NCBI RefSeq assembly: GCF_024652905.1
Contig: NZ_CP102428.1
Span: forward strand, 3,642,001 to 3,706,000
Reading direction: 5' to 3'
DNA: 64,000 nt
Origin: Pseudomonas oryzihabitans
Lineage (GTDB): Bacteria; Pseudomonadota; Gammaproteobacteria; Pseudomonadales; Pseudomonadaceae
Shown: one piece after another, positions 46,499 to 60,036 of the stretch
Numbering within the stretch: the first letter of the stretch is position 1
How the letters are laid out: each line of letters starts with the position of its first letter
The notes under the pieces: model-generated
Seen by the model: only the letters and a program-made list of their open reading frames with translations
Databases searched by the model: none
Told to the model about the DNA's origin: nothing
Program-made: the position numbers and the translations under genes

Positions 46499-47983
46499 TC
46501 AACCTTTGTCATACGCCCTTTCTAGCGCCTCGTTGAGTGTCCTTAGCACCTTAACCCGCGCGAAACGCTTGTCGTTGGCCTCCACCAGCGTCCAGGGCGC
46601 GATGGCGGTGCTGGTCTGCACCACCATGTCGTTGACGGCCTGGCTGTAGAGGTCCCACTTGTCGCGATTGCGCCAGTCGTCCTCGGTGATCTTGAATCGC
46701 TTGAAGGGCGTTTCCTCGCGGGCGCGGAAGCGCTCCAGCTGGGTGTCCTGGTCGATGGCCAGCCAGAACTTGGCCAGCACGATGCCGGCGTCGTGGAGCT
46801 GCTCCTCGAAGTCGTTGATCTCGCCATAGGCCCGCTGCCAGTCAGCGACCGGTGTCAGCTCCTCGACCCGCTCCACCAGCACCCGGCCGTACCAGGAACG
46901 ATCGAAGATGGTGAAATTGCCCAGCCGCGGAATGTGCCGCCAGAAGCGCCAGAGATAGGGCTGGGCGAGTTCCTCGTCGCTGGGCGCGGCCACCGGGACG
47001 ATGCGGTACTGGCGCGGATCCAGGGCGCCGGTGACGCGGCGGATGGCGCTGCCCTTGCCGGCGGCATCGTTGCCCTCGAAGGCCGCCACCAGGGCATGAC
47101 GGCGATACTTCTTGTCGCGCAGGCGCCGCGCCAGGCGAGCCTGTTCGGCGAGCAGCTGGTCTTCGTAATCGGCCTTGTCCAGGCGTTGACTCAGGTCCAT
47201 GGCCTCCAGCACGCCGCGGCCATCCACCGGCGGCGGCAGCACGGCGGCGGCCCGGCGCTGCTTGCGCGGCTTGTTGGCCAGGGCGCGCTGCAGCGCCTTG
47301 AGCAGCACGGTGCCGACGGTCAGGCTGCGAAAGCGCTCGTCGAAACCGGGCACCACGTGCCAGGGGGCGTAGTCGTGATGGGTCCGCCGCACCACCCGCT
47401 CGCCCTCCTTGACGAAGCGGTCGTAGACCTTGGCCTGGCGCCAGTCCAGCGGACTGAGCTTCCAGCCCAGGCGAGGATCGTTCTTGAGGTGCTTCAGGCG
47501 CTGCTTGAGTTGGGGCTTGGAAAGATGGAACCAGAACTTGAGGATCAGCGCGCCCTCGTCGGCGAGCATCCGCTCGAAACGCTCCGCCTGGCCGATGGCG
47601 GCATCCAGTTCGACGCGACTGAGCGCCTTGTTGACCCGCCCATGCAGCATCTGGCTGTACCAGTTGCCGAAGAAGACGCCGGTCCGACCCTTGCCCGGCA
47701 GGCGCTGCCAGTAGCGCCAGGCCGGCGGGTGCTGGCGCTCCTCGACGGTGGGCTGCAGAAAGGTCTCGACGCGGATCAGGCGCGGATCCATCCACTCGTT
47801 GAGCAGCTTGACCGTCTCGCCCTTGCCCGCACCCTCGATGCCATTGATCAGTACGATCACCGGGAAACGGCCCTGCGCCTTGAGTTCGTATTGGGCGGCC
47901 AGCAACGCTTCGCGCAGCTTGGGCAGCTTGGCGTCGTAGGTGGCCTCGTCGAGCAGGTGTTCGTTTTCGGCGGCTTCGAACAT
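46499..47983 (-). CDS. pap: Polyphosphate:AMP phosphotransferase (class II PPK2)
   Basis: 494 residues consisting of two fused PPK2 domains. Each has a Walker A: VLINGIEGAGKGETVK at about 45-60 and AAFEGNDAAGKGSAIRR in the second half. Lid and Walker B equivalents include WYSQMLHG and FDRSWYGRVLVERVE. The two-domain form transfers phosphate from polyphosphate to AMP. Start is set at MFEAAENEHLL. The divergent gene, 199 bp away, encodes a CHAD-domain protein, another polyphosphate-linked family. Confidence 0.93.
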   Translation of the reverse strand: MFEAAENEHLLDEATYDAKLPKLREALLAAQYELKAQGRFPVIVLINGIEGAGKGETVKLLNEWMDPRLIRVETFLQPTVEERQHPPAWRYWQRLPGKGRTGVFFGNWYSQMLHGRVNKALSRVELDAAIGQAERFERMLADEGALILKFWFHLSKPQLKQRLKHLKNDPRLGWKLSPLDWRQAKVYDRFVKEGERVVRRTHHDYAPWHVVPGFDERFRSLTVGTVLLKALQRALANKPRKQRRAAAVLPPPVDGRGVLEAMDLSQRLDKADYEDQLLAEQARLARRLRDKKYRRHALVAAFEGNDAAGKGSAIRRVTGALDPRQYRIVPVAAPSDEELAQPYLWRFWRHIPRLGNFTIFDRSWYGRVLVERVEELTPVADWQRAYGEINDFEEQLHDAGIVLAKFWLAIDQDTQLERFRAREETPFKRFKITEDDWRNRDKWDLYSQAVNDMVVQTSTAIAPWTLVEANDKRFARVKVLRTLNEALERAYDKG

Positions 47984-48182
47984 CCGGATCTCCTCGCTCT
48001 GGTGGTCGGGCAACTATAGCCCTTCTGACCGGCCAGGCGGCAGGCGGTGCCCGCTGCTAGATCTCATGAAGGAAATATGACGTTTAGATGAAATTTGGCA
48101 TCTCCCGCTGTCGTGGAGGTCTTTCTTACCGTTACGCTCCCGCGCAGCGCGGGTCTGCAGTCCACCTATTGAGGAGAGTTCG

Positions 48183-49148
48183 ATGGCCTTTCGTTTCGAT
48201 GCGCGGCAAGCAGCTGACGAGGAAGTCCGCCGCGTGGTGACGGATCGTCTGGTACAGGCTGAGACGTCCCTGGCGAGCGGTACCCCCAAAGGCGTCCACG
48301 AGACGCGCAAGCGCCTCAAGGAACTACGCGCCCTCTTGCGGCTGTTGCACGGCGCCCTGGGCAAGCGTGCCTTCGCCAGTCGCAATCGGCGCCTGCGCGA
48401 CCTGGGCCGCCAGCTGTCGTCGCTACGCGACAGCGCCGCCCTGGTGGAAAGCTGGGACAAGCTGGGTGAGTCCGACCGCAAGAGGTTCGCTTCGCCGGCC
48501 ATGAAGCGGGTGCGCCAGCGCCTGCAGGAGCGCGCCGACCAGCAGATCGCCGCGGCCAGCGGCCATCCCGAGTTGCTCGAGGAACTGACCGCCCTGCGCG
48601 AGGAAGTGGCCGGTTGGAAGCTCTCCGGCAAGGGCTTCGGGCTGTTCGCCCGTGGCCTGGAAGACAACTACAAGGCCGGGCGCCAGGCGCTCAAGACCGC
48701 CCGCGACAAGCCCACCGACGAGACCCTGCACGACTGGCGCAAGCGGGTGAAGGATCACTGGTATCACACCCAGCTGCTGGCCGCGGCCTGGCCGGCGGAA
48801 TTCAAGACGCGCCAGAAGAGCCTCAAGCGTCTTTCGGAATACCTGGGCGACGATCACGACCTGGCGGTGATGCAGCTGTTGCTGGAAAGCGAGCCGACGC
48901 TGTTCGGCGCCAGCAATACCCGCCTGGCCATTGGCGAGAGCCTGGCCCAGCAGCGCGAGCGCTTGCAGGCGAAGGCCTTTTCCCTGGGCCTGCGTCTCTA
49001 TCTGGACAAGCCCACCGCCCTCGCCGAACGCTGGCGGGACCTTTGGCGATTGGCCAGCCGCCCTTATGAGTCGCGCAAAGCCAAGCCCAAGAGCGCCAAG
49101 GTCCCTGCCGGGCTGTTGCCACACCTGGTCGAAGAATCGTCAGTCTAA
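48183..49148 (+). CDS. CHAD-domain protein
   Basis: 321 residues rich in Lys, Arg and Leu. Two helical bundles contain the CHAD pattern: VHETRKRLKELRALLRLL and LHDWRKRVKDHWYHTQLL with conserved His and basic residues, and YLGDDHDLAVM. CHAD domains are known to bind inorganic polyphosphate and appear next to polyphosphate enzymes, as here with pap. It lacks the CYTH domain found in triphosphatases. It probably targets polyphosphate granules. Confidence 0.92.
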   Translation: MAFRFDARQAADEEVRRVVTDRLVQAETSLASGTPKGVHETRKRLKELRALLRLLHGALGKRAFASRNRRLRDLGRQLSSLRDSAALVESWDKLGESDRKRFASPAMKRVRQRLQERADQQIAAASGHPELLEELTALREEVAGWKLSGKGFGLFARGLEDNYKAGRQALKTARDKPTDETLHDWRKRVKDHWYHTQLLAAAWPAEFKTRQKSLKRLSEYLGDDHDLAVMQLLLESEPTLFGASNTRLAIGESLAQQRERLQAKAFSLGLRLYLDKPTALAERWRDLWRLASRPYESRKAKPKSAKVPAGLLPHLVEESSV

Positions 49149-49605: not shown

Positions 49606-50445
49606 ATGTACAGTACCGCTTTGGTCGAGCTGCTGCGCACCCACGAGCGGGCGCTGCTCGACGCCTGGATCGGCGCTCAGCGCGCGGCCGGCATGCGCAT
49701 CGACCTGCTCGACGAAACCACCATCCTGGCCAACTCCGCCGAGCTGTTGCGGCGCATCACCGTGGCCGCCGCCCAGGGCCTGGGTGATCTGCGCGAGCCG
49801 CACTGGCAGCCGGTGCGCGCGCTGCTGGAGCGGTTTTCCTTCGACCAGAGTCGTGCCGGCCTGACGCCGTCGCAGACGGCGACCTTCGTCTTCTCGCTCA
49901 AGGAGCCGCTGTTCACGCTGATCCAGAACGAATGCGACGATCCCCTCGCCGAAATCTGGGCCGCCACCCGGCTGATCGACGACCTCGGTCTGTACAGCAT
50001 GGAAAGCTATGTGAACGGTCGCGAGACGGTGATCCGCGAGCAACAGGAAAGCATGCTGGAACTGTCCACCCCGGTGGTGGAACTGTGGGACGGCATCCTG
50101 GCCATCCCGCTGATCGGCGCGCTGGACAGCAACCGCACCCAGGTGGTGATGGAGTCGCTGCTGGAAAAGATCGTCCAGACCGAATCGGACCTCGCCATCA
50201 TCGACATCACCGGCGTGCCCACGGTGGACACCATGGTCGCCCAGCACCTGCTCAAGACGGTGACCGCCGCCCGGCTGATGGGCGCCCAGTGCATCATCAG
50301 CGGCATCCGCCCGCAGATCGCCGCCACCATCGTCCATCTGGGCGTGGACCTGGGCGATGTCATCACCAAGGCGTCGCTGGCCGATGCCTTCCGCCTGGCC
50401 TTGCGCCAGCAGGGCGTGCGCCTGGCCGCCCCCGCCAAGGGCTAG
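49606..50445 (+). CDS. rsbR: RsbR-type stressosome sensor
   Basis: 279 residues. The N-terminal half (about 1-155) is an all-helical RsbRD/RsbR sensor fold (e.g. LLRTHERALLDAWIGAQRA); the C-terminal half (about 160-275) is a STAS domain with DITGVPTVDTMVAQHLL and SGIRPQIAATIVHLG. By alignment from memory to Bacillus subtilis RsbRA, phospho-acceptor Thr205 corresponds to Thr209 and Thr171 to Ser175. RsbR and RsbS assemble a large sensor complex that captures the RsbT kinase. Signal unknown. Confidence 0.93.
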   Translation: MYSTALVELLRTHERALLDAWIGAQRAAGMRIDLLDETTILANSAELLRRITVAAAQGLGDLREPHWQPVRALLERFSFDQSRAGLTPSQTATFVFSLKEPLFTLIQNECDDPLAEIWAATRLIDDLGLYSMESYVNGRETVIREQQESMLELSTPVVELWDGILAIPLIGALDSNRTQVVMESLLEKIVQTESDLAIIDITGVPTVDTMVAQHLLKTVTAARLMGAQCIISGIRPQIAATIVHLGVDLGDVITKASLADAFRLALRQQGVRLAAPAKG

Positions 50446-50454
50446 GAGCGCGCC

Positions 50455-50880
50455 ATGATCGACCGGATTCCGATTCTCAAGCTCGGCCCCTTCCTGCTGC
50501 TGAGCATCCAGGTGGACATGCACGACCAGCTGGCGCTGGACCTGCAGGAAGACCTCACCGAGCAGATCGTCCGCCACAAGGCCAAGGGCGTGCTCATCGA
50601 CATCTCGGCCCTGGAAATCGTCGACTCCTTCATTGGCCGGATGCTGTCCCACATCGCCCAGGTCTCGCGCATCCTCGATGCCAAGGTGATCGTGGTCGGC
50701 ATGCAGCCGGCGGTGGCCATCACCCTGGTGGAACTGGGGCTGTCGCTGGAGGGCATCGCCACGGCGCTGAACATGGAAAAGGGCATGCGCCGGCTGGAAG
50801 CCATGGTCGCCGCGGACGAATCGCTGGAGGAGTCAGAGGGTGGCGAAGACACAGACGCTTCCACTCCGCCAGGAGACTGA
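50455..50880 (+). CDS. rsbS: RsbS-type stressosome scaffold (STAS)
   Basis: 141 residues. Opening MIDRIPILKLGPFLLLSIQ and IDISALEIVDSFIGRM match RsbS closely; Ser58 is at the position of the phosphorylated Ser59 of B. subtilis RsbS. A C-terminal acidic extension (about 120-141) exceeds the Bacillus protein. It forms the core of the stressosome with RsbR. The rsbT gene starts 41 bp before this gene ends, an overlap that implies translational coupling. Confidence 0.93.
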   Translation: MIDRIPILKLGPFLLLSIQVDMHDQLALDLQEDLTEQIVRHKAKGVLIDISALEIVDSFIGRMLSHIAQVSRILDAKVIVVGMQPAVAITLVELGLSLEGIATALNMEKGMRRLEAMVAADESLEESEGGEDTDASTPPGD

Positions 50881-51238
50881 CATCGTGCTGATCCGTCAGC
50901 AGGTGCGCAAGGTCGCCGAAGCCATCCGCCTGGGCCTGATCTCCCAGACCAAGATCGTCACCGCGGCCAGCGAGATCGCGCGCAACGGCCTGGTGTACGG
51001 ACTGGGCGGCGAATGCCTGATCGAGGAGACGGTGCGCGCCGGCAAGCCGGCGATCCGCCTGGTGATCCGTGATCGGGGTCCGGGCATCGCCGACCTCGAC
51101 CGCGCCATGGTCGACGGCTACACCTCGGGCAAGGGCCTGGGTCTGGGGCTGTCCGGTTCGCGGCGGCTGGTGGACGACTTCCACATCGAGAGCCAGCCCG
51201 GCCAGGGCACCACCGTCGAGCTCTGGAAGTGGCGATGA
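50840..51238 (+). CDS. rsbT: RsbT-type serine/threonine kinase
   Basis: 132 residues. A GHKL-fold serine kinase: N box VTAASEIARNGLVYG, G1 box RDRGPGIADL and G2 SGKGLGLGLSGSRRL. It phosphorylates the STAS domains of RsbR and RsbS and, on release, activates a partner. Start is a GTG preceded by a purine-rich site within rsbS. In Bacillus its output is RsbU; no RsbU gene is present here, so the downstream proteins are the likely targets. Confidence 0.94.
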   Translation: MAKTQTLPLRQETDIVLIRQQVRKVAEAIRLGLISQTKIVTAASEIARNGLVYGLGGECLIEETVRAGKPAIRLVIRDRGPGIADLDRAMVDGYTSGKGLGLGLSGSRRLVDDFHIESQPGQGTTVELWKWR

Positions 51239-52215
51239 ACGACCAGCCGTGCAGCCTGGTGCTGCCGGTGACCACCACGGTCCATGTCGATGCCGCCCGG
51301 CGCGCCCTGGTCCGCCTGGCCGGCACCGTCACCACCGACGAAACCCTGCTCGGGCGCCTGACCATCGTCGCCCAGGAGCTGGGCTACAACCTGGTTCGGC
51401 ATGCCGGACATGGCGAACTCCTGGCTACCCTGAGCGGCGAAGGCGTGCTCGATGTCCTGGCGGTGGATCGCGGTCCGGGCATGCACGACGTCGCCCGCTG
51501 CCTGAGCGATCACTACAGCACGGCCGCGACGCTGGGTGCCGGCCTGGGGGCGATCCGCCGGCAGGCCGATGTGTTCGACATCCATTCGCGACCCGGTCAG
51601 GGCACCGTGGTGCTGGCCCGCTTTCATCTGGCGGGCACGCCCAGCAGCCGGCTGCAGCATGGCGCTCTGTGCACGCCGCACCCCGAGGAAGAGGTCTGCG
51701 GCGACACCTGGGCGGTCAGCGGGCGTCGCCTGCTGGTCTGCGATGGCCTGGGACACGGCCGGCAGGCCGCCACGGCCAGTCGCCGGGCGCGAGAATTGTT
51801 CCTGCGCCATGGCGCGCACCTGCCGCTGCAGCGACTGATGGAGAATCTGCACCAAGCGCTGATGGACACCCGTGGCGCCGCCCTGGCCCTGGCCGAGCTG
51901 GACCCCGATCAGGGCCAGGTGAGCTTTTGCGGCATCGGCAACATCGCCGGGCGCCTGCTCGGCAACACCTCGCGCAGCCTGGTGTCCAACAATGGCACCC
52001 TGGGCTACCGGATCGGACGGATCCAGACCTACACCTACCCCTGGACACCCGGCACCCTGCTGGTGCTGAACTCCGATGGACTGACGTCCAAGGTAGGCCT
52101 GGGCGAGCACTCCGGGCTCGGGGCGCGCCATCCGGCGCTGATCGCCGCCCTTCTGCATCGCGACTTCCGGCGTTCCGCCGACGATGCCACCGTCTTGGTA
52201 CTCAAGCATGTCTGA
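51235..52215 (+). CDS. RsbX/SpoIIE-type phosphatase with N-terminal RsbT-like domain
   Basis: 326 residues. N-terminal GHKL fold (about 10-130) carries LTIVAQELGYNLVRHAGHGE and DRGPGMHDVARCL, like RsbT. The C-terminal PP2C/SpoIIE domain (about 135-325) has metal-binding aspartates in VCGDTWAV, VCDGLGHGRQAA, LNSDGLT and SADDATVL. It likely reverses RsbR/RsbS phosphorylation as RsbX does. The start overlaps the rsbT stop as ATGA. The N-terminal RsbT-like fold lacks a clear equivalent in classical RsbX. Confidence 0.9.
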   Translation: MNDQPCSLVLPVTTTVHVDAARRALVRLAGTVTTDETLLGRLTIVAQELGYNLVRHAGHGELLATLSGEGVLDVLAVDRGPGMHDVARCLSDHYSTAATLGAGLGAIRRQADVFDIHSRPGQGTVVLARFHLAGTPSSRLQHGALCTPHPEEEVCGDTWAVSGRRLLVCDGLGHGRQAATASRRARELFLRHGAHLPLQRLMENLHQALMDTRGAALALAELDPDQGQVSFCGIGNIAGRLLGNTSRSLVSNNGTLGYRIGRIQTYTYPWTPGTLLVLNSDGLTSKVGLGEHSGLGARHPALIAALLHRDFRRSADDATVLVLKHV

Positions 52216-53965
52216 CGTCTTGCCCCTGCTGACCCTCGCCCTGCGCAGCGAGCAGGACATCGTACATTGCCGCCAGGCCGCCAAGCGCCTGGCCGCGGCT
52301 CTGGAATGGCCGGTGCTGGAGCAGATCCGTCTGGCCACCGCGGTCTCCGAACTGGCGCGCAACATCCATCAGTACGCCGGCAGCGGGCATTTCGACTTCG
52401 CCCTGCTGCGAGATGACGGCCAGCGCCTGCGCGGCCTGGAGGTGCGGGCGGTCGACCAGGGCCCGGGTATCGCCGAGATGGACGCCATCCGCGCGGGCAG
52501 CTATCGCTCCAACACCGGCATGGGTATCGGCCTGCGCGGCGCCCAGCGGCTGTTCGACGACTTCGACATCCAGACGTCCCCCGCCGGCACCTGCATCACC
52601 GCCCGCAAGTACCAGGCGCCACGGCCCTTTCCCGCCGCTGACCTGCTCCAGGCGCTGACGGCCGACCTGCAAGGCAGTCCGCCACCGGATCCCTATCAGC
52701 AGATCCGCCTGCAGAGCGAAGAACTGCTGCTGACCAACACCGAACTGCAACTGCGCCAGTCGGAACTGGAGGTCACCAACAAGGAACTGGAAAACACCAA
52801 CCAGGGGGTGGTGGCGCTCTATTCCGAATTGGAAAAGGCCACCCAGGAACTCAAGGAGGCCAGCGAGGCGAAGACGCGCTTCTTCTCCAACATGACCCAT
52901 GAATTCCGCACCCCGATCAACATCATCGAGAACGTCGCCAAGCTGCTCGCCAGCGGCGTGGACGGGGCGCTCAATGCCGAGCAGCAGCGCCAGGTACGCT
53001 TCATCAGCGATGCGGCGCTGGAACTGGCCAATCTGGTCAGCGAATTGCTGGCGCTGGCCGAGGTGCAGTCCGGTCGCCTGACCATCGTGCCCCAGCCCTT
53101 CCCGCTGGGGCCCTTCGTCGACCGCCTGGAACAGTTCGCCGCCGCCCTGGCGCCGCGCTATCCCCAGGTCAGTTTCAGCGTCGCCCCGCCGCCCGCCGAG
53201 GTGCTGCTGGATACCGACGAGAGCCGGCTGTTCCAGGTGCTGCGCAATCTGATCTCCAACGCCTTCAAGTACACCCCTCGGGGCCAGGTGCGCATCCAGG
53301 TGTTCCAGCCGGACGACGCCAGCCTGGAATTCTTGGTAGAAGACAGCGGCATCGGCATCGCCGCCGCGGATCAGCAGAAGATCTTCGAGGAATTCGAGCG
53401 GATCCGCTCGCCGCACCTGACCCATATCGAAGGCACCGGCCTGGGCCTGCCCCTGGCGCAACGCCTGGCCGTGCTGCTGCGCGGCGAGCTGTCCCTGGAC
53501 AGCGAGGTCGGCCGCGGCAGTCGCTTCACCCTGCGCCTGCCGCGCCACTACGCCAGTCACCGCGCTGCCGAACCGGAACCCGATCTCAGCGGCCTCACCG
53601 TGCTGGTGATCGAAGACAACGAAGGGGATCGCTATCTGGTCCGTCGTACCCTCGAACGACTCAATCCCGTGCTGCTGGAGGCCGACAGCGCCCGCAGCAG
53701 CCTGGATCGGCTCAATGCGGTACGCCCGGACATCATCATCCTCGACCTCGACCTGCCCGACATCAACGGTGAGGATCTGCTCGCCAGCATGGACTGGAGC
53801 ATGCACCGACGGGTGCTGATCAACACCGCCCAGCCCCTGGACGAGGCGGGTCGCCAACGCCTGCAGGACTACTGCCACGCCATCCTGTTCAAGCACGCCC
53901 CCGATCACGCCGAGCGGCTGCTGGCCGAGGTCTGTGCGCTGGCGCGGAGCCTGTCCGATGACTAG
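52208..53965 (+). CDS. Hybrid histidine kinase with N-terminal RsbT-like domain
   Basis: 585 residues. About 1-140 is a second RsbT-like GHKL domain: ATAVSELARNIHQYAGSGHF and VDQGPGIAEMDA. A coiled coil (about 165-225, ELQLRQSELEVTNKELENTN) leads to HisKA with His231 in NMTHEFRTPINI, then HATPase (about 335-450), then a receiver domain with Asp513 in ILDLDLPDI. Its first bases overlap the phosphatase stop. It appears to connect the stressosome to a phosphorelay. Confidence 0.93.
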   Translation: MSDVLPLLTLALRSEQDIVHCRQAAKRLAAALEWPVLEQIRLATAVSELARNIHQYAGSGHFDFALLRDDGQRLRGLEVRAVDQGPGIAEMDAIRAGSYRSNTGMGIGLRGAQRLFDDFDIQTSPAGTCITARKYQAPRPFPAADLLQALTADLQGSPPPDPYQQIRLQSEELLLTNTELQLRQSELEVTNKELENTNQGVVALYSELEKATQELKEASEAKTRFFSNMTHEFRTPINIIENVAKLLASGVDGALNAEQQRQVRFISDAALELANLVSELLALAEVQSGRLTIVPQPFPLGPFVDRLEQFAAALAPRYPQVSFSVAPPPAEVLLDTDESRLFQVLRNLISNAFKYTPRGQVRIQVFQPDDASLEFLVEDSGIGIAAADQQKIFEEFERIRSPHLTHIEGTGLGLPLAQRLAVLLRGELSLDSEVGRGSRFTLRLPRHYASHRAAEPEPDLSGLTVLVIEDNEGDRYLVRRTLERLNPVLLEADSARSSLDRLNAVRPDIIILDLDLPDINGEDLLASMDWSMHRRVLINTAQPLDEAGRQRLQDYCHAILFKHAPDHAERLLAEVCALARSLSDD

Positions 53966-55070
53966 TGCCCAGCGCCGTATCGTCATCATCGATGACACCG
54001 AGGCCAATCGCTATGTGCTGCGCAAGATCCTCGGCAGCCAGACCCACTACGAAGTGCTGGAAGCGGCCAGCGGAGCCGCTGGCCTGGCGCTGATCGACGA
54101 ATCCGTCGAACTGGTGATCATCGACGTCAATCTACCGGACACCACCGGCTTCGAGCTGATCCAGGCCATCGAGCACAGGTGCGGTTGGGGTCGGCTGCCG
54201 GCCATCATCAACATCTCGGCCACCTTCGTCTCCGGCAAGGACAAGGCCCAGGGCTTCAACACCGGGGCCCAGGCCTACCTGACCCACCCGATCAATCCGG
54301 AAGAGGTGCTGGCCACCGTCGGCGCCCTGCTCAAGGCCAGCTCCCGGGTCGGGCACATGGAGCAGCAGCGCAATTCAGCCATCGCCCGCAGCGAGAACCT
54401 GCAGGCGGAAAAGGTCATGCTGGAACGCTTCATGAGATCGCTCAACCACGACCTGCGCTCGCCGCTGACCGCCGCCACCATGGTGGTCAACCTGATGCAG
54501 CGCAGCCCGGCGCGACGCACCGACGATCTGCTGCAGACCTTGCACGACAACCTGCAGCGCATGAACCAGATGATCACCGACGTGCTGGACATCAGCCACA
54601 TGAGCCTGGGCGGCGGCGTCCGTCTCAGCGGCGATCCGCTGGTGCTGGGTCCGCTGCTGAACGACGCCGCCGCCAATCTACGGCTGCAATTCGGCAATCA
54701 CCTCGAGCTGCAACTGGAGACCCCGGAGCTGGAGGTGCTGTGGGACAGATACGCCTTCCTGCGCATCTTCGACAACCTGGTGCTCAACGCCGCCAAGCAT
54801 GGCGACACGGGAACGCCGATCCAGGTGCGGCAATGGCTGGCTGGCGATCAGGTCATGCTGGAGCTGCGCAACCTGGGGCAGTTTCCCGACGAAGTCCTGG
54901 CCAACCTGGCCACGCCCTATTTCATCTCCACCCGCAGCGACAAGCGCGGCTGGGGCCTGGGACTGCCCATCGTCAAGGCGCTCAGCGAAAGCTTTGGTGG
55001 CGAGGCGCGCTTCGCCAATGGCGCGGGCGAGGTGATCATCACCCTGCACCTGCCGCTGCGCCTGGCCTAG
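53958..55070 (+). CDS. Receiver-histidine kinase, last gene of the stressosome operon
   Basis: 370 residues: receiver (about 5-125) with Asp56 in LVIIDVNLPDTTGF; HisKA at about 155-215 with His164 in SLNHDLRSPLTAA; HATPase (about 260-368) ending in GWGLGLPIVKALSESFGG. No DNA-binding, GGDEF or other output domain is present. Its start lies inside the previous gene's stop region. It can accept phosphate from the preceding hybrid kinase and pass it on; the final output is not in this window. Confidence 0.92.
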   Translation: MTSAQRRIVIIDDTEANRYVLRKILGSQTHYEVLEAASGAAGLALIDESVELVIIDVNLPDTTGFELIQAIEHRCGWGRLPAIINISATFVSGKDKAQGFNTGAQAYLTHPINPEEVLATVGALLKASSRVGHMEQQRNSAIARSENLQAEKVMLERFMRSLNHDLRSPLTAATMVVNLMQRSPARRTDDLLQTLHDNLQRMNQMITDVLDISHMSLGGGVRLSGDPLVLGPLLNDAAANLRLQFGNHLELQLETPELEVLWDRYAFLRIFDNLVLNAAKHGDTGTPIQVRQWLAGDQVMLELRNLGQFPDEVLANLATPYFISTRSDKRGWGLGLPIVKALSESFGGEARFANGAGEVIITLHLPLRLA

Positions 55071-55093
55071 CGCAGCGCAGCGCCTAGGGACCG

Positions 55094-55511
55094 GATGTAG
55101 GTGGAGCTGAGACAGCTCCACCGTCGCAGCCCGACATGGCGGGCTCGACCTGAACAGCGTTGGGCTTCGCTGCGCTCAGCGCCAACCTACTGAAGTTCGT
55201 GATGTAGGTTGGGCTGAGACAGCTCTACCGTCGAAGCCCAACAGGGCGGGCTCGATCTGGGCAGCGTTGGGCTTCGCTGCGCTCAGCGCCAACCTACTGA
55301 AGTTCGTGATGTAGGTTGGGCTGAGACAGCTCTACCGTCGAAGCCCAACAGGGCGGGCTCGACCTGAAAAGCGTTGGGCTTCGCTGCGCTCAGCGCCAAC
55401 CTACTAGAGTTTCGTGTCGTAGGTTGGGCTGAGACAGCCACCGTCGCAGCCCAACAGGGCGGGCTCGATCTGGGCAGCGTTGGGCTTCGCTCAGGTTCAG
55501 CCCAACCGCCC
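55094..55511. repeat. Four tandem copies of a ~107-bp palindromic unit
   Basis: Units start at 55094, 55201, 55308 and 55416. Each opens with GTAGGTTGGGCTGAGACAG (first copy diverged) and closes with CTCAGCGCCAACCTAC, with inverted GAAGCCCAAC and GTTGGGCTTCG between, so each folds on itself. The ends resemble those of the array at 28221. It sits between the convergent stops of the stressosome operon and gbcB. Confidence 0.85.
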
Positions 55512-55517
55512 TCCTCC

Positions 55518-56615
55518 TCAGAACTCGATCTGCACATCCCCCTGCGGAATACTGCAGCAGGACAGGATGTAGCCTTCGGCCTCGTCTTCCTCGGTGATGC
55601 CGCCGTTGTGGTCCATGACCACCTCGCCGCTTTTCTTGAGCACCTTGCAGGTGCCGCAGATGCCCATGCCGCAGGCCTTGGGAATGTGCAGGCCGAGCTT
55701 GGCCGCGGCGCCGTGGATGGTTTCGCCCGGGCCGATGCTGACGCTCTTGTCGCTCTCGGTGAAGGAGATCAGGCACTGGGCTTCCAGGGGAATCGGCGGC
55801 AGGTCGGCGGCGGCTTCGGCCTGTTCGGCGGCTTCGACCTTGGCTTCCGGTGGCGTCGCGCCAAAGGATTCCTCGTGGTAGCGGGTCATGTCGAAGTCCA
55901 GCTCGCGGAGCATGGCCTTGACGGCGTTCATGTAGGGCGTGGGGCCGCAGCAGAAGATCTCGCGCTCACGAAAGTCCGGCGCCATCAGCTCCAGCATGCG
56001 GCGATCGAAGTAGCCGCGGAAACCGGCCCAGGACTCACCGTGCTCGGTGCGCTCGCATACCAGGTTCAGGGCGAAGTTGTCGATCCGCGCGGCCATGTGC
56101 TCCAGCTCACCCTGGTAGATGATGTCGCGCGGGGTGCGGGCGCTGTGCACGAAGACCATGTCGACGCTGGCGTTGGTGTCGTAGAACCAGCGCGCCATGG
56201 ACATCACCGGGGTGATGCCCACGCCGCCGGAGAGGTAGAGCACCTTGTCGGCCGGGTAATCGATGGCGTTGAACAGGCCGACCGGGCCATGCACGGCCAG
56301 GTTTTCACCGACCTTGAGGTTGTCGTGCAGCCAGTTGGATACCAGGCCGCCCGGCACGCGCTTGACGGTGATGGAGAAGCTGTAGGGCACCGAAGGCGAG
56401 CTGGAGATGGTGTAGGAGCGCATCACCTGCCGGCCATCGATTTCCAGCTCCAGGGTCACGAACTGGCCCGGCTTGAAGAAATACATCAGCGGGATTTCGG
56501 CCGTGAAGCAGAAGGTGCGCACGTCCCAGGTTTCCTGGATGACCTTGACGCAGCGCACGGGGTGGCGGCCATTGGTCCAGGTCTGGGTGGTTACGGGGTT
56601 GAGGAAGGTATTCAT
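55518..56615 (-). CDS. gbcB: Glycine-betaine demethylase, ferredoxin-reductase component
   Basis: 365 residues. FAD domain (about 15-120) with RSYTISSSPSVPYSF, NAD domain with YLSGGVGITPVMSM and FCCGPTPYM, and a C-terminal plant-type [2Fe-2S] ferredoxin with CGMGICGTC and a fourth Cys in LSCCS. GbcB passes electrons from NADH to GbcA for removal of the first methyl of glycine betaine. It is divergent from gbcA over a 328-bp region, the standard Pseudomonas arrangement. Confidence 0.95.
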   Translation of the reverse strand: MNTFLNPVTTQTWTNGRHPVRCVKVIQETWDVRTFCFTAEIPLMYFFKPGQFVTLELEIDGRQVMRSYTISSSPSVPYSFSITVKRVPGGLVSNWLHDNLKVGENLAVHGPVGLFNAIDYPADKVLYLSGGVGITPVMSMARWFYDTNASVDMVFVHSARTPRDIIYQGELEHMAARIDNFALNLVCERTEHGESWAGFRGYFDRRMLELMAPDFREREIFCCGPTPYMNAVKAMLRELDFDMTRYHEESFGATPPEAKVEAAEQAEAAADLPPIPLEAQCLISFTESDKSVSIGPGETIHGAAAKLGLHIPKACGMGICGTCKVLKKSGEVVMDHNGGITEEDEAEGYILSCCSIPQGDVQIEF

Positions 56616-56943
56616 GACGCACCTCGACTGCCACTGGGGCTATTGGCGGCGATTCTGGGAGGGCCCCACGACCGCCACTTTCCCAATCGCGACATCCACA
56701 TGCCGATGGCGACCGGCCCAGCAGTGGCAAGGGCTGGGGCGTCGTGAACAGCGTCGGCCATGTCGCCCATGAGCAAGGCCCCCTCCCGGCTCCGGCCCCA
56801 CACTCCGCCCCAAGCCGAACCTGAACAGCGCGCGACGGGCGAAGCACGGGGTCATTCGGCGGCCCTGTCCTGTCGGCCAATAGCCTTGCAATACCGTGAC
56901 CAACCACTTTCGCCACCCGCCGCGGTGGCCACGAGGATGTACG
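56616..56943. promoter_or_regulatory. gbcB-gbcA divergent control region
   Basis: 328 bp without a gene. GTCGGCCA occurs twice in the same orientation (56753-56760 and 56872-56879). In Pseudomonas the AraC-type activator GbdR controls gbcAB from this region; whether these repeats are its site cannot be told here. Confidence 0.4.
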
Positions 56944-58236
56944 ATGGACGTCAGCACCTTGAGTTTGGGCGACCCTCTCGATCCGGCCCGCAAGGCCACG
57001 GCCGAGATGCTGCGCACCCGCGAGCGCACCTATTCCCTGCCCCAGCCGTTCTACAACGACGAGCGCCTGTTCCAGATCGACATGCAGGAGATCTTCGGCA
57101 AGGAATGGCTGATCGCCGGCATGACCTGCGAGATCCCCACCAAGGGCAACTTCATCACCCTGCAGCTGGGTGACAATCCCATCCTGGTGGTCCGGGGTGC
57201 CGAGGGCAAGGTCCACGCCTTCCACAACGTCTGCCGTCACCGCGGTTCGCGCCTCTGCGTGAGCGACAAGGGCAAGGTCGCCAAGCTGGTCTGCCCCTAC
57301 CACCAGTGGACCTACGAGCTGGACGGCCGTCTGCTGTTCGCCGGCACCGAGATGGGCGCCGACTTTAACATGGCCGACTTCAACCTCAAGCCGATCCACG
57401 TCAAGACCGCCGGCGGCTACATCTTCATCTCCCTGGCCGACGAACCGCCGGCCATCGACGACTTCCTGCGTACGCTCGAGCACTACATGGAGCCGTACGA
57501 CATGGAGAACGCCAAGGTCGCGGTACGCACCGACCTGGTCGAGCAGGCCAACTGGAAGCTGGTGCTGGAAAACAACCGCGAGTGCTATCACTGCAGCGGC
57601 TCCCACCCCGAGTTGCTGAACACCCTGCTGGAATGGGACGACGTCACCGATCCGCGTGCCTCCCAGGCATTCAAGGACCAGGTCGCCGCCTGCACCACGC
57701 GCTGGGACGCCGACAACATCCCCTACGCCCATGCCAGCTTCGGCTTGCGCAACCGCATCGTGCGCATGCCACTGCTCGCCGGCACCGTGTCCATGACCCT
57801 GGACGGCAAGCCCGGCTGCCAGAAGCTCATGGGTCGCATCAAGGACCCGGACCTGGGCTCCATGCGCATCCTGCACCTGCCGCACTCCTGGAACCACTGC
57901 ATGGGCGATCACATGATCGTCTTCACCGTCTGGCCGCTGGGTCCGACCGAGACCGTGGTGACCACCAAGTGGCTGGTGCACAAGGACGCCGTGGAAGGCG
58001 TCGACTACGATCCGGTCAACCTGCGCAAGGTCTGGGATGCCACCAATGACCAGGATCGCCGCCTGGCCGAGGAAAACCAGCGTGGTATCAACTCCAAGGC
58101 CTACCAGCCGGGTCCCTACTCAAAGACTTACGAATTCGGCGTGATCAACTTCATCGACTGGTACAGCGAGCGGCTGCTCAACAATCTCGGCGAAGAGGCG
58201 CCAGCCGCGCATCTACGCCAGGTCGGCGGTGACTGA
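56944..58236 (+). CDS. gbcA: Glycine-betaine demethylase, Rieske oxygenase component
   Basis: 430 residues. Rieske [2Fe-2S] centre C97-x-H99 in NVCRHRG and C117-x2-H120 in CPYHQWTYELDG. The mononuclear iron site follows with NNRECYHCSGSHPE (His216 and His221). The start is set at MDVSTLSLGDPLDPARK. The enzyme converts glycine betaine to dimethylglycine, feeding choline and betaine catabolism. A hairpin follows the gene. Confidence 0.95.
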   Translation: MDVSTLSLGDPLDPARKATAEMLRTRERTYSLPQPFYNDERLFQIDMQEIFGKEWLIAGMTCEIPTKGNFITLQLGDNPILVVRGAEGKVHAFHNVCRHRGSRLCVSDKGKVAKLVCPYHQWTYELDGRLLFAGTEMGADFNMADFNLKPIHVKTAGGYIFISLADEPPAIDDFLRTLEHYMEPYDMENAKVAVRTDLVEQANWKLVLENNRECYHCSGSHPELLNTLLEWDDVTDPRASQAFKDQVAACTTRWDADNIPYAHASFGLRNRIVRMPLLAGTVSMTLDGKPGCQKLMGRIKDPDLGSMRILHLPHSWNHCMGDHMIVFTVWPLGPTETVVTTKWLVHKDAVEGVDYDPVNLRKVWDATNDQDRRLAEENQRGINSKAYQPGPYSKTYEFGVINFIDWYSERLLNNLGEEAPAAHLRQVGGD

Positions 58237-58255
58237 GGAACGCGAATTCCAAGCC

Positions 58256-58284
58256 GCCCATGGAGTCGCAAGGGCTCCATGGGC
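58256..58284 (+). terminator. Hairpin downstream of gbcA
   Basis: GCCCATGGAG, a 9-nt loop, then CTCCATGGGC. Perfect 10-bp stem, 20 bp after the stop; T-run absent. Confidence 0.6.
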
Positions 58285-58410
58285 ATGCCAATAAACTGTC
58301 TTTATGTTAATGCGGTTTTTTGACGCACCCCTTTTCAGCGTCTTTATTTTAAAACATCACATAAAGTTGTGAGCCTGTTCACGTTTTGAATCGTCTTTCA
58401 TGGGCTCATC

Positions 58411-60036
58411 ATGACTCTTCGCTCGCTGTCCATCGCTACTCGCAATCTGCTGTGTTTTGGCATTCTCGCGACACTCGTCGCTGCCCTCGGCTTGTTCGGT
58501 TGGTTTCAGTTGGCGCAAATCCGCCAGTTGGGTCATCAGGTAGAACAGCGCCATATCCCCACGCTCGTCGCCGCCAATGACTTGGGGATGCTGCTGGCCC
58601 GAACCCGCATCGAAACCCTGCGTCTGCTGGCCATGCCCGATGCCGAAACCCTGACCAACACCCGCAAGAAGCTGGACGACCTGAGTACCGAGGTCCAGGC
58701 CGCCTTCGGGCGCTATCAGCAAGGCGCGCTGTCGCCACAGAGCCGACAGGCGCTGGACGATCTGCGCCAGGTGCACCGGGAATACATGCAGGGCGTACGG
58801 CAGCTGGCCGACCTGGCCGGTGCCGGCCAGATGGCCGAGGCGCGCCAGGTGGTCCAGCAGAACATGGCGCAACTGGGTCTCCGGATGAACGCCAGCATCG
58901 AGACGCTACGCAACGTGGTCCAGCAGGATATCCATACGGCCAGTAACGAGGCCGATACCGCCTATGCGCGCTCTACCACCGTGACCTGGCTGATGATCCT
59001 GCTGGCGCTGGCCCTCACCGCCCTGCTCGCCTGGCGGCTGACCCGCAGCATCGCGGGGCCCATCGCCCAGGCCGTTGCGGCGGCGCGTACCATCGCCACC
59101 GGCGACCTGACCCAGCCGCTGGACGCTCGCGGGCGCGACGAGGCGGCCCAGCTGCTGCAGGCCATGCAGCAGATGCAGGGCCAGTTGCGCGAGACCCTCG
59201 CGCACATCGGCGATTCGGCCACCCAGTTGGCTTCAGCCGCCGAGGAGATGACCGCGGTGACTCAGGAAAGCGCCCACGGCCTGCGCCAGCAGAATAACGA
59301 GATCGAAATGGCCGCCACGGCGGTCACCGAGATGAGCCAGGCGGTCGAAGAGGTCGCCGGCAATGCCGGCTCGACCTCCACCGCGTCGCGCCAGGCCGCC
59401 CAGACCGCGGCCCAGGGCCAGCGCCAGCTGGGCGAGACCCTCGGCGCCATCGAAGCCCTCACCGAGCAGGTCCTCGGCGCCAGCGCCCAGGCCCGTGAGC
59501 TGGAAAGCCAGACCCGCGACATCAGCCAGGTGCTGGATGTGATCCGCGCGGTGGCCGAGCAGACCAATCTGCTGGCGCTCAACGCCGCCATCGAGGCCGC
59601 CCGGGCCGGTGAGGCGGGCCGCGGCTTTGCCGTGGTGGCCGACGAGGTACGGGCCCTGGCCAAGCGTACCGGGGACTCGACCAGCGAGATCGAGAAGATG
59701 ATCGGCAATATCCAGCAGGGCACTGGCCAGACCGTCGATGCGCTGCTGAGCAGTGCCGATCAGGCACGACTGACCCGGGAACAGGCCCAGGCGGCCAATG
59801 CCGGCCTCGCTGCCATCGCGGATGCGGTATCCGGCATCGACGAACGCAACCTGCTGATCGCCAGTGCCGCCGAGCAGCAGGCCCAGGTGGCCCGCGAGGT
59901 GGATCGCAATCTGGTACGCATCCGCGATCTATCGGTGCAGACCGCCGCCGGTGCCGAGCAGACCCGGGGCGCCAGCCAGCAACTGGCGGATCTGGCAGCG
60001 ACCTTGAGTGGTCAGGTACGCCGCTTCCAGTTCTGA
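58411..60036 (+). CDS. Methyl-accepting chemotaxis protein, first of a tandem pair
   Basis: 541 residues. Transmembrane helices at about 14-35 and 190-210 enclose a four-helix periplasmic domain (about 36-188) with [24 protein letters not shown] and a signalling domain with [20 protein letters not shown] follow. It is closely similar to the gene 126 bp downstream over its whole length. I saw no sigma-28 promoter as good as that before the second copy. Ligand unknown. Confidence 0.93.

Follow-up and report, generated by a model that had tools for sequence, protein, structure and literature searches.

Stressosome modules of the rsbRSTX type with kinase or receiver outputs, some of them carrying an RsbU_N domain, have already been described (Heinz et al. 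2022, PMC9237108), and stressosome-plus-two-component modules are also reported in PMC10014275. The survey of Heinz et al., other members of which have HisKA/REC phosphorelay outputs, began from globin-type RsbR proteins, and the word 'Deinococcus' is absent from its main text. How stressosomes that lack σB reach their targets is an open question; in Vibrio, an interaction between RsbT and the kinase could not be shown, according to the same report (PMC9237108). Here we describe a six-gene unit in a 64,000-nucleotide stretch of Pseudomonas oryzihabitans DNA (NCBI RefSeq assembly GCF_024652905.1, contig NZ_CP102428.1, positions 3,642,001 to 3,706,000; hereafter the window). Judged from its sequence, the unit holds a complete stressosome core that lacks the σB branch and is coupled genetically to two kinase genes, and pseudomonads conserve the whole set together. 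The original prediction for this DNA, a stress sensor feeding a phosphorelay in a pseudomonad, stands as regards the core and the two kinases, but a system of this kind was already in print. Our preferred reading, to which we give a probability of roughly 55%, is that a hybrid kinase replaces RsbU, is coupled to the stressosome by an RsbT-like domain of its own and phosphorylates the receiver of the sixth gene product, which would gate a second kinase.

Domain composition of the six-gene unit

Six open reading frames (ORFs) on the plus strand at 49606-55070 encode RsbR, RsbS, RsbT, a phosphatase (X), a hybrid histidine kinase (gene 5) and a receiver-kinase (gene 6). That the six genes overlap or lie within 10 bp of each other, as had been proposed, was borne out by the ORFs, by their junctions and by Pfam for every gene (Table 1). 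None of the six proteins had an NCBIfam match over the cut-off among the matches listed (the best 25 for genes 5 and 6). The gene identities are well supported; the signalling route discussed below is one that we infer.

The first three genes, taken alone, have the features of a stressosome: an N-terminal sensor followed by a STAS domain in RsbR, a single STAS domain in RsbS and a GHKL-type RsbT. RsbS matched solved RsbS chains (phmmer, 1.8e-30 to 4.5e-28) with the serine of its DSF motif aligned, and this phosphosite serine was invariant in 11 sequences, including those from Deinococcus and Sphingomonas; related sequences in this and the following counts are not independent. Ser175 and Thr209 of RsbR and Ser58 of RsbS match known phosphosites by alignment and are invariant in relatives. 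The best PDB sequence match of RsbT was an anti-sigma F factor (4.7e-6), and the E, N, D and G residues of the ATP site were intact in 63/63 RsbT sequences. A haem-sensing RsbR was not supported: no histidine is invariant in residues 1-140 (16 sequences), and Pfam identifies the domain as RsbRD_N.

The original prediction had identified the genes correctly and overlooked an N-terminal HATPase_c_2 domain in both X and gene 5. X consists of this domain (37 bits) and a SpoIIE domain (52 bits); residues D157, D170, D281, D316 and D317 are invariant in 13 sequences, and the ATPase residues of the N-terminal domain are kept in 58/58 X sequences. The SpoIIE domain agrees with the predicted RsbX/SpoIIE-type phosphatase, but as an ATPase-PP2C fusion X is no plain RsbX, and it differs from the single-domain PP2C RsbX of Vibrio-type modules. 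In two relatives (L164 and L168) its halves are split into separate adjoining genes. Searched alone against the PDB with phmmer, the RsbT-like domains from X and the kinase returned nothing beyond chance-level matches.

Gene 5 is divided by Pfam into HATPase_c_2 (residues 20-134, 50.5 bits), HisKA, HATPase_c and REC domains. Residues H231, N351, D379, G411 and G413 are invariant in 18 sequences, as is the stretch GVVALYSEL in the signalling helix, or S-helix (PMC1592074), and the receiver has the D, T and K residues. The helix motif ELENTNQGVVALYSELE recurs in stressosome-linked kinases from several phyla. In the AlphaFold2 model, the predicted local distance difference test score (pLDDT) of the N-terminal domain is mostly > 80, and a single helix (residues 162-248) leads into the kinase core; confidence is low along this helix, and the model as a whole has a mean pLDDT of 76.9 and a predicted template modelling score of 0.38. 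In fold searches with the model, histidine-kinase cores (residues 222-450) took up the matches, so that the N-terminal domain was barely probed. The order in gene 5 is RsbT-like domain, signalling helix and catalytic core, where other stressosome-linked kinases have RsbU_N; the downstream kinase here carries no RsbU_N, which is present in relatives L168 (whose kinase starts 876 nucleotides after the PP2C gene) and L172. The earlier suggestion that the two kinases are the only candidates for output, taken as free targets of RsbT, overlooks that an RsbT-like domain is built into both the hybrid kinase and the phosphatase (Pfam).

The RsbT-like domains of RsbT, X and the hybrid kinase

A tree of 101 RsbT-like domains from free RsbT, X and the kinase showed four label changes, close to the minimum of three and far from the mean of 46.9 for shuffled labels. 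By the Shimodaira-Hasegawa-like approximate likelihood ratio test (SH-aLRT), clades were formed by 35 of the 36 X sequences (94), by 33 of the 41 RsbT sequences (89) and by 20 of the 22 kinase sequences together with two Phaeobacter-type sequences (85). The tree was built from few columns with a short search, and all named clades fall below the 95 SH-aLRT mark, which we take as moderate support. Outside their clades lay the long-branched kinase sequences of L098 and L129, the X sequence of L171 and eight divergent RsbT sequences. For the tree and for the residue counts, assignment to RsbT, X or kinase followed frame length, by which the additional free-standing ATPase genes in L164 and L168 were taken as RsbT; ten near-duplicate loci were excluded. 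With this moderate support, the domains of RsbT, X and the kinase appear to form position-specific groups.

The glutamate and asparagine of the N box, the aspartate and glycine of G1 and the glycines of G2 were kept in 39 of 41 kinase domains and in both Phaeobacter-type domains, the counts being made after a domain-length filter of 95 amino acids that excluded three partial kinase domains (L101, L126 and L161). This conservation bears on how RsbT might act. RsbT binds and orders the linker of RsbU (PMC12143880), and the equivalent cassettes of Xanthomonas (L123), Variovorax (L125) and Pseudomonadaceae (L154-L157) contain kinases that begin directly with the signalling helix. These facts, and the decay of the fused domain in some lineages, would fit a route in trans as in Bacillus, in which freed RsbT binds the kinase helix and the fused domain is a dimerisation or nucleotide-sensing relic. 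A relic, however, would not keep its ATP-binding residues in 39/41 cases spread over Pseudomonadota and Deinococcota (counted after three shorter partial matches had been removed), and we regard the route in trans as possible but doubtful.

Conservation in Pseudomonadaceae and beyond

The nearest named relatives are P. oryzihabitans strains and Pseudomonas sp. 102515, with a kinase 96% identical. A search of other genomes for the six-gene order, which had been suggested as a check, found it intact in 25/25 named Pseudomonadaceae loci (L043-L067), and chance is therefore not an adequate explanation; order was scored in 25 of 54 matched loci, the other 29 being weaker partial matches outside this count. 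The gene 5 kinase was present in 13/13 genomes of the genus and 34/398 genomes of the family at 1e-80 (the window's own included in both), and in 2/369 class-sample genomes at 1e-50, one of them the window's own. Genome samples were drawn evenly and the family and class searches scored three candidates per genome, so that these prevalences are lower bounds. Among the 34 kinase-bearing family genomes, 30/30 short loci show the order RsbT, X, hybrid kinase and receiver-kinase, and four show all six genes (L104, L105, L109 and L110).

For loci of wider relatives, domain profiles were built from pseudomonad sequences. RsbS was found in 24/398 Pseudomonadota genomes at 1e-20 (own included), and 20 of these 24 cassettes have the ATPase-PP2C fusion as X. 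Also among the 24, L167 bears the ATPase domain on a different sort of kinase (profile 81.8 bits), whose close relative in L127 has HisKA_2, and L168 and L172 have the RsbU_N kinases. None of the kinase types mentioned so far was found in L163, L164, L165 or L171, the downstream proteins of L163 and L165 lying outside the scan.

Plasmid MP1 of Deinococcus radiodurans carries the same six-gene architecture. Deinococcus sp. KNUC1210 has the six genes, with no REC domain detected in the kinase, and in Deinococcus psychrotolerans the RSTX genes and the kinase flank the start of the circular record (L173 and L100) and are followed by a REC-GAF-GGDEF gene. Position 6 is a REC-SpoIIE protein in Nonomuraea, and the Sphingomonas locus L099 is without gene 6. 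In Streptomyces (L126 and L129), position 5 is a PP2C protein whose N-terminal part scores 33-36 bits against the profile of the kinase N-domain and in which the helix motif is present; a gene annotated as SigF lies nearby in L126. Because this protein combines a degenerate RsbT-like domain, the helix and PP2C, the kinase would seem to stand in the slot of RsbU, and the exchange of domains at positions 5 and 6 (GGDEF, SpoIIE, RsbU_N and PP2C) is the pattern expected if gene 5 feeds the receiver of gene 6. The relatives can be read as sharing a single input slot with exchangeable couplers and outputs. In Paraburkholderia sp. D15, RsbR is annotated as two overlapping pieces (L124:6128-6999), perhaps through a frameshift, and katE and an Hsp20 gene follow the cassette.

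The same exchanges speak to the direction of signalling. The intact E, N, D and G residues of the fused domain could allow it to phosphorylate RsbR and RsbS, and the D, T and K residues of the gene 5 receiver could allow that receiver to serve as an input, so that the kinase pair would feed signals into the stressosome. In Bacillus, however, the gene after the RST module encodes the output phosphatase RsbU (PMC9237108); in Streptomyces a PP2C protein follows X, with the SigF-annotated gene near it in L126, and position 6 bears effector domains in two relatives. We consider this reverse direction unlikely.

A receiver without the canonical lysine in gene 6

Pfam assigns REC, HisKA and HATPase_c domains to gene 6, in the order of a REC-DHp-CA protein, and both phosphoacceptors, Asp and His, are present. 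Its receiver retains this Asp together with the acidic pair, but the canonical Lys was kept in 0/53 gene-6 receivers (49 His, 2 Glu, 1 Gln and 1 Ala). Among 130 other receivers of the comparison set, which is drawn mostly from pseudomonads, 116 have Lys, 3 another letter and 11 a gap; Lys-keeping receivers near cassettes of odd order (REC-HK in L171, a stand-alone REC in L172) were counted among the 130, and five duplicate loci were excluded. The window's genome yielded 57 receiver matches, 30 of which were compared: 28 have Lys, one was unaligned and gene 6 has His. The Lys-less receiver flags an unusual second step common to these cassettes; it may also be a trait of a wider receiver subfamily. 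A literature search on Lys-less receivers brought up nothing that we recognised.

Genome-wide search for a σB branch and for output regulators

We looked in the rest of the genome (5.22 Mb) for an RsbU/σB-type output of RsbT, which would have spoken against the proposed link to the kinases, and found none with the RsbU_N and SigBFG models. RsbU_N (PF08673) gave no match in the whole genome, although control matches were obtained in B. subtilis, and SigBFG gave six matches, none over the cut-off (best 135.7 versus 234.35 bits). Of 26 HATPase_c_2 matches, the top three are those of this operon; each of the remaining 23 falls within an open frame at least 356 amino acids long, leaving no stand-alone RsbW-like gene among them. 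By these searches, the reported lack of σB, RsbU and RsbW in the window extends to the genome. For RsbV, no dedicated model was run; STAS occurs at eight places including RsbR and RsbS, three more were read as ORFs, and the last three are frames of 543-606 amino acids.

The other three SpoIIE places were rejected as RsbU candidates: a REC-PP2C gene with a STAS neighbour (L118), a PP2C gene (L119) and a phosphatase/kinase frame (L120). The L118 pair (G000:C1:1376287-1377785), a second STAS plus REC-PP2C pair in the genome, has no stressosome genes among the adjoining ORFs listed and is presumably RssB/RssC-like. The gene following PP2C in L119 we take to be SiaB-like, and the single STAS genes L121 and L122 are presumably MlaB-like and chemotaxis-linked respectively.

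No family of flanking ORFs (≥ 120 amino acids, phmmer 1e-15) was common to more than five of the 18 loci compared, and the unit for that reason looks self-contained. A co-encoded output regulator was sought in pseudomonads and not found, the flank families listed (the first 26) coming from one close group (L060, L062, L063, L064 and L066). In a genome of the same class, a LuxR-type REC-GerE gene directly follows gene 6 (L162:12872-13753) and is a candidate final target there. That no cognate regulator was found would suit kinases whose only tie to an ordinary stressosome is a common promoter and which have separate roles, but the six genes are co-inherited in unlike genomic contexts and across phyla, and an RsbT-like domain lies within the kinase itself; we hold this to be very improbable.

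Proposed signalling route

By homology, RsbR and RsbS would form the STAS core, and stress would lead RsbT to phosphorylate the three phosphosites identified above. X, tethered to the core via its RsbT-like domain, would dephosphorylate RsbR and RsbS. By analogy with RsbT and the linker of RsbU (PMC12143880), gene 5 most likely receives the stressosome signal via its own RsbT-like domain and the signalling helix: the domain would either dock on the STAS core against RsbT or pair with RsbT, and its release or pairing would straighten the helix and change kinase activity. Gene 5 would then, most likely and by analogy with LvrA-LvrB of Leptospira, phosphorylate the gene-6 receiver and so gate the second kinase, which may in turn phosphorylate a response regulator encoded outside the unit. 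A more specific version is tentative: the three paralogous RsbT-like domains might compete for the STAS lattice, with the stressosome holding, releasing and resetting a kinase client and the Lys-to-His receiver acting as a non-standard switch. If so, the effector kinase would itself be a stressosome component.

Several observations weigh against our preferred reading, a hybrid kinase coupled through its RsbT-like domain. This domain is degenerate in Caballeronia (L098) and Streptomyces (L129), the two misses among the 41 kinase domains, and is only partly matched in L101, L126 and L161. By the same mechanical rule, the 24 Pseudomonadota cassettes include nine ATPase-domain kinases (that of L161 partial) and eight helix-only kinases, which implies that the domain is dispensable for coupling in the latter. 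The cassette is sporadic, 364/398 family genomes being without a kinase match at 1e-80. The absence of the canonical Lys from the gene-6 receiver may mean that it switches in an unusual manner; the searches described above identified no cognate response regulator; and Heinz et al. did not obtain a positive VvRsbT-VvD1 interaction in Vibrio (PMC9237108).

A kinase with its own RsbT-like domain offers a testable coupling rule, in which the RsbT-like domain docks and the signalling helix transmits. The rule would extend to pseudomonads, Deinococcus, Sphingomonas and, with a phosphatase output, Streptomyces, and suggests how a stress-sensing complex could act directly on histidine-kinase signalling, bypassing the usual sigma factor.

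Features of the locus and its neighbours

Table 1. Features of the six-gene unit (positions in the window) and junctions with the preceding gene, all taken from the DNA itself.
Feature	Position	Strand	Domains and residues	Junction and start
RsbR	49606..50445	+	Pfam RsbRD_N (helical sensor domain) and STAS; likely phosphosites S175, T209
RsbS	50455..50880	+	Pfam, single STAS domain; likely phosphosite S58	9-nucleotide gap (read from DNA)
RsbT, GHKL switch kinase	50840..51238	+	Pfam HATPase_c/HATPase_c_2	41-nucleotide overlap, GTG at 50840 (read from DNA)
X	51235..52215	+	RsbT-like ATPase (51277-51615) fused to SpoIIE/PP2C phosphatase (51727-52209)	4-nucleotide overlap, ATG at 51235
Gene 5, hybrid histidine kinase	52208..53965	+	RsbT-like ATPase, signalling helix, HisKA, HATPase, REC	8-nucleotide overlap, ATG at 52208
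RsbT-like ATPase domain of hybrid kinase (proposed stressosome coupler)	52265..52609	+	Pfam HATPase_c_2	
Signalling helix of hybrid kinase	52715..52873	+	ELENTNQGVVALYSELE motif	
Gene 6, Rec-controlled histidine kinase	53958..55070	+	REC-HisKA-HATPase (Pfam)	8-nucleotide overlap, ATG at 53958
His110 codon of gene 6	54285..54287	+	receiver position usually Lys	

No conserved promoter of the cassette was recognised. An open frame of 601 codons runs antisense to the hybrid kinase (52202-54007, minus strand); long frames on the opposite strand are frequent in this stretch, which is rich in GC, and probably do not represent genes. Directly 3′ of the operon (55089-55500) lie three head-to-tail copies of a 107-nucleotide unit (55094-55414) and a partial fourth; copies are 89-92% identical to the first, and no inverted repeats were reported there. 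Upstream (46499-49148) are a CHAD-domain gene (Pfam) and a minus-strand neighbour, presumably a PPK2-type polyphosphate kinase gene. This upstream pair is kept in 7/7 loci L043-L049 and in none of L050-L067, a CHAD match of L052 lying downstream on the other strand. The region 55518-60036 holds a flavin/ferredoxin reductase gene (minus strand) and a methyl-accepting chemotaxis gene, with a third gene between them that we take from its sequence to encode a Rieske-type oxygenase.

Comparison with known systems

With the Bacillus RsbRST-RsbU-RsbV-RsbW-SigB pathway, the locus shares RsbR, RsbS and RsbT and, by alignment, their phosphosites. In contrast to Bacillus, the genome has no RsbU_N match and no SigBFG match over the cut-off, and a kinase occupies the slot of RsbU. 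The rsbRSTX modules with VvD1-D2 of Vibrio vulnificus and Vibrio brasiliensis likewise have two-component genes directly after RSTX and, as described, neither RsbU nor SigB (PMC9237108, PMC4976288, PMC10014275). The same reports give these modules a haem globin RsbR, a single-domain X, a PAS domain on D1 and an output thought to be cyclic di-GMP, whereas here RsbR has RsbRD_N without an invariant His in residues 1-140, X is an ATPase-PP2C fusion and the kinase carries an RsbT-like domain.

The RsbU_N-histidine kinases of stressosome operons also follow RSTX and have an N-terminal coupler, a helix and a kinase (PMC9237108, PMC12143880); the coupler is RsbU_N in those proteins and an RsbT-like ATPase here. 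In the LvrA-LvrB system of Leptospira, an upstream kinase activates a Rec-DHp-CA kinase gated by its receiver, and gene 6 has the domain order of LvrB (PMC13269768). That system, in the account cited, is described without a stressosome, and the gene-6 receiver differs in lacking the usual Lys. Our literature search, outside which lay figures and subscription papers, returned no report of a kinase or a phosphatase fused to an RsbT-like domain. A two-component output of a stressosome was already known; among the differences at this locus is the RsbT-like domain on both the kinase and the phosphatase.

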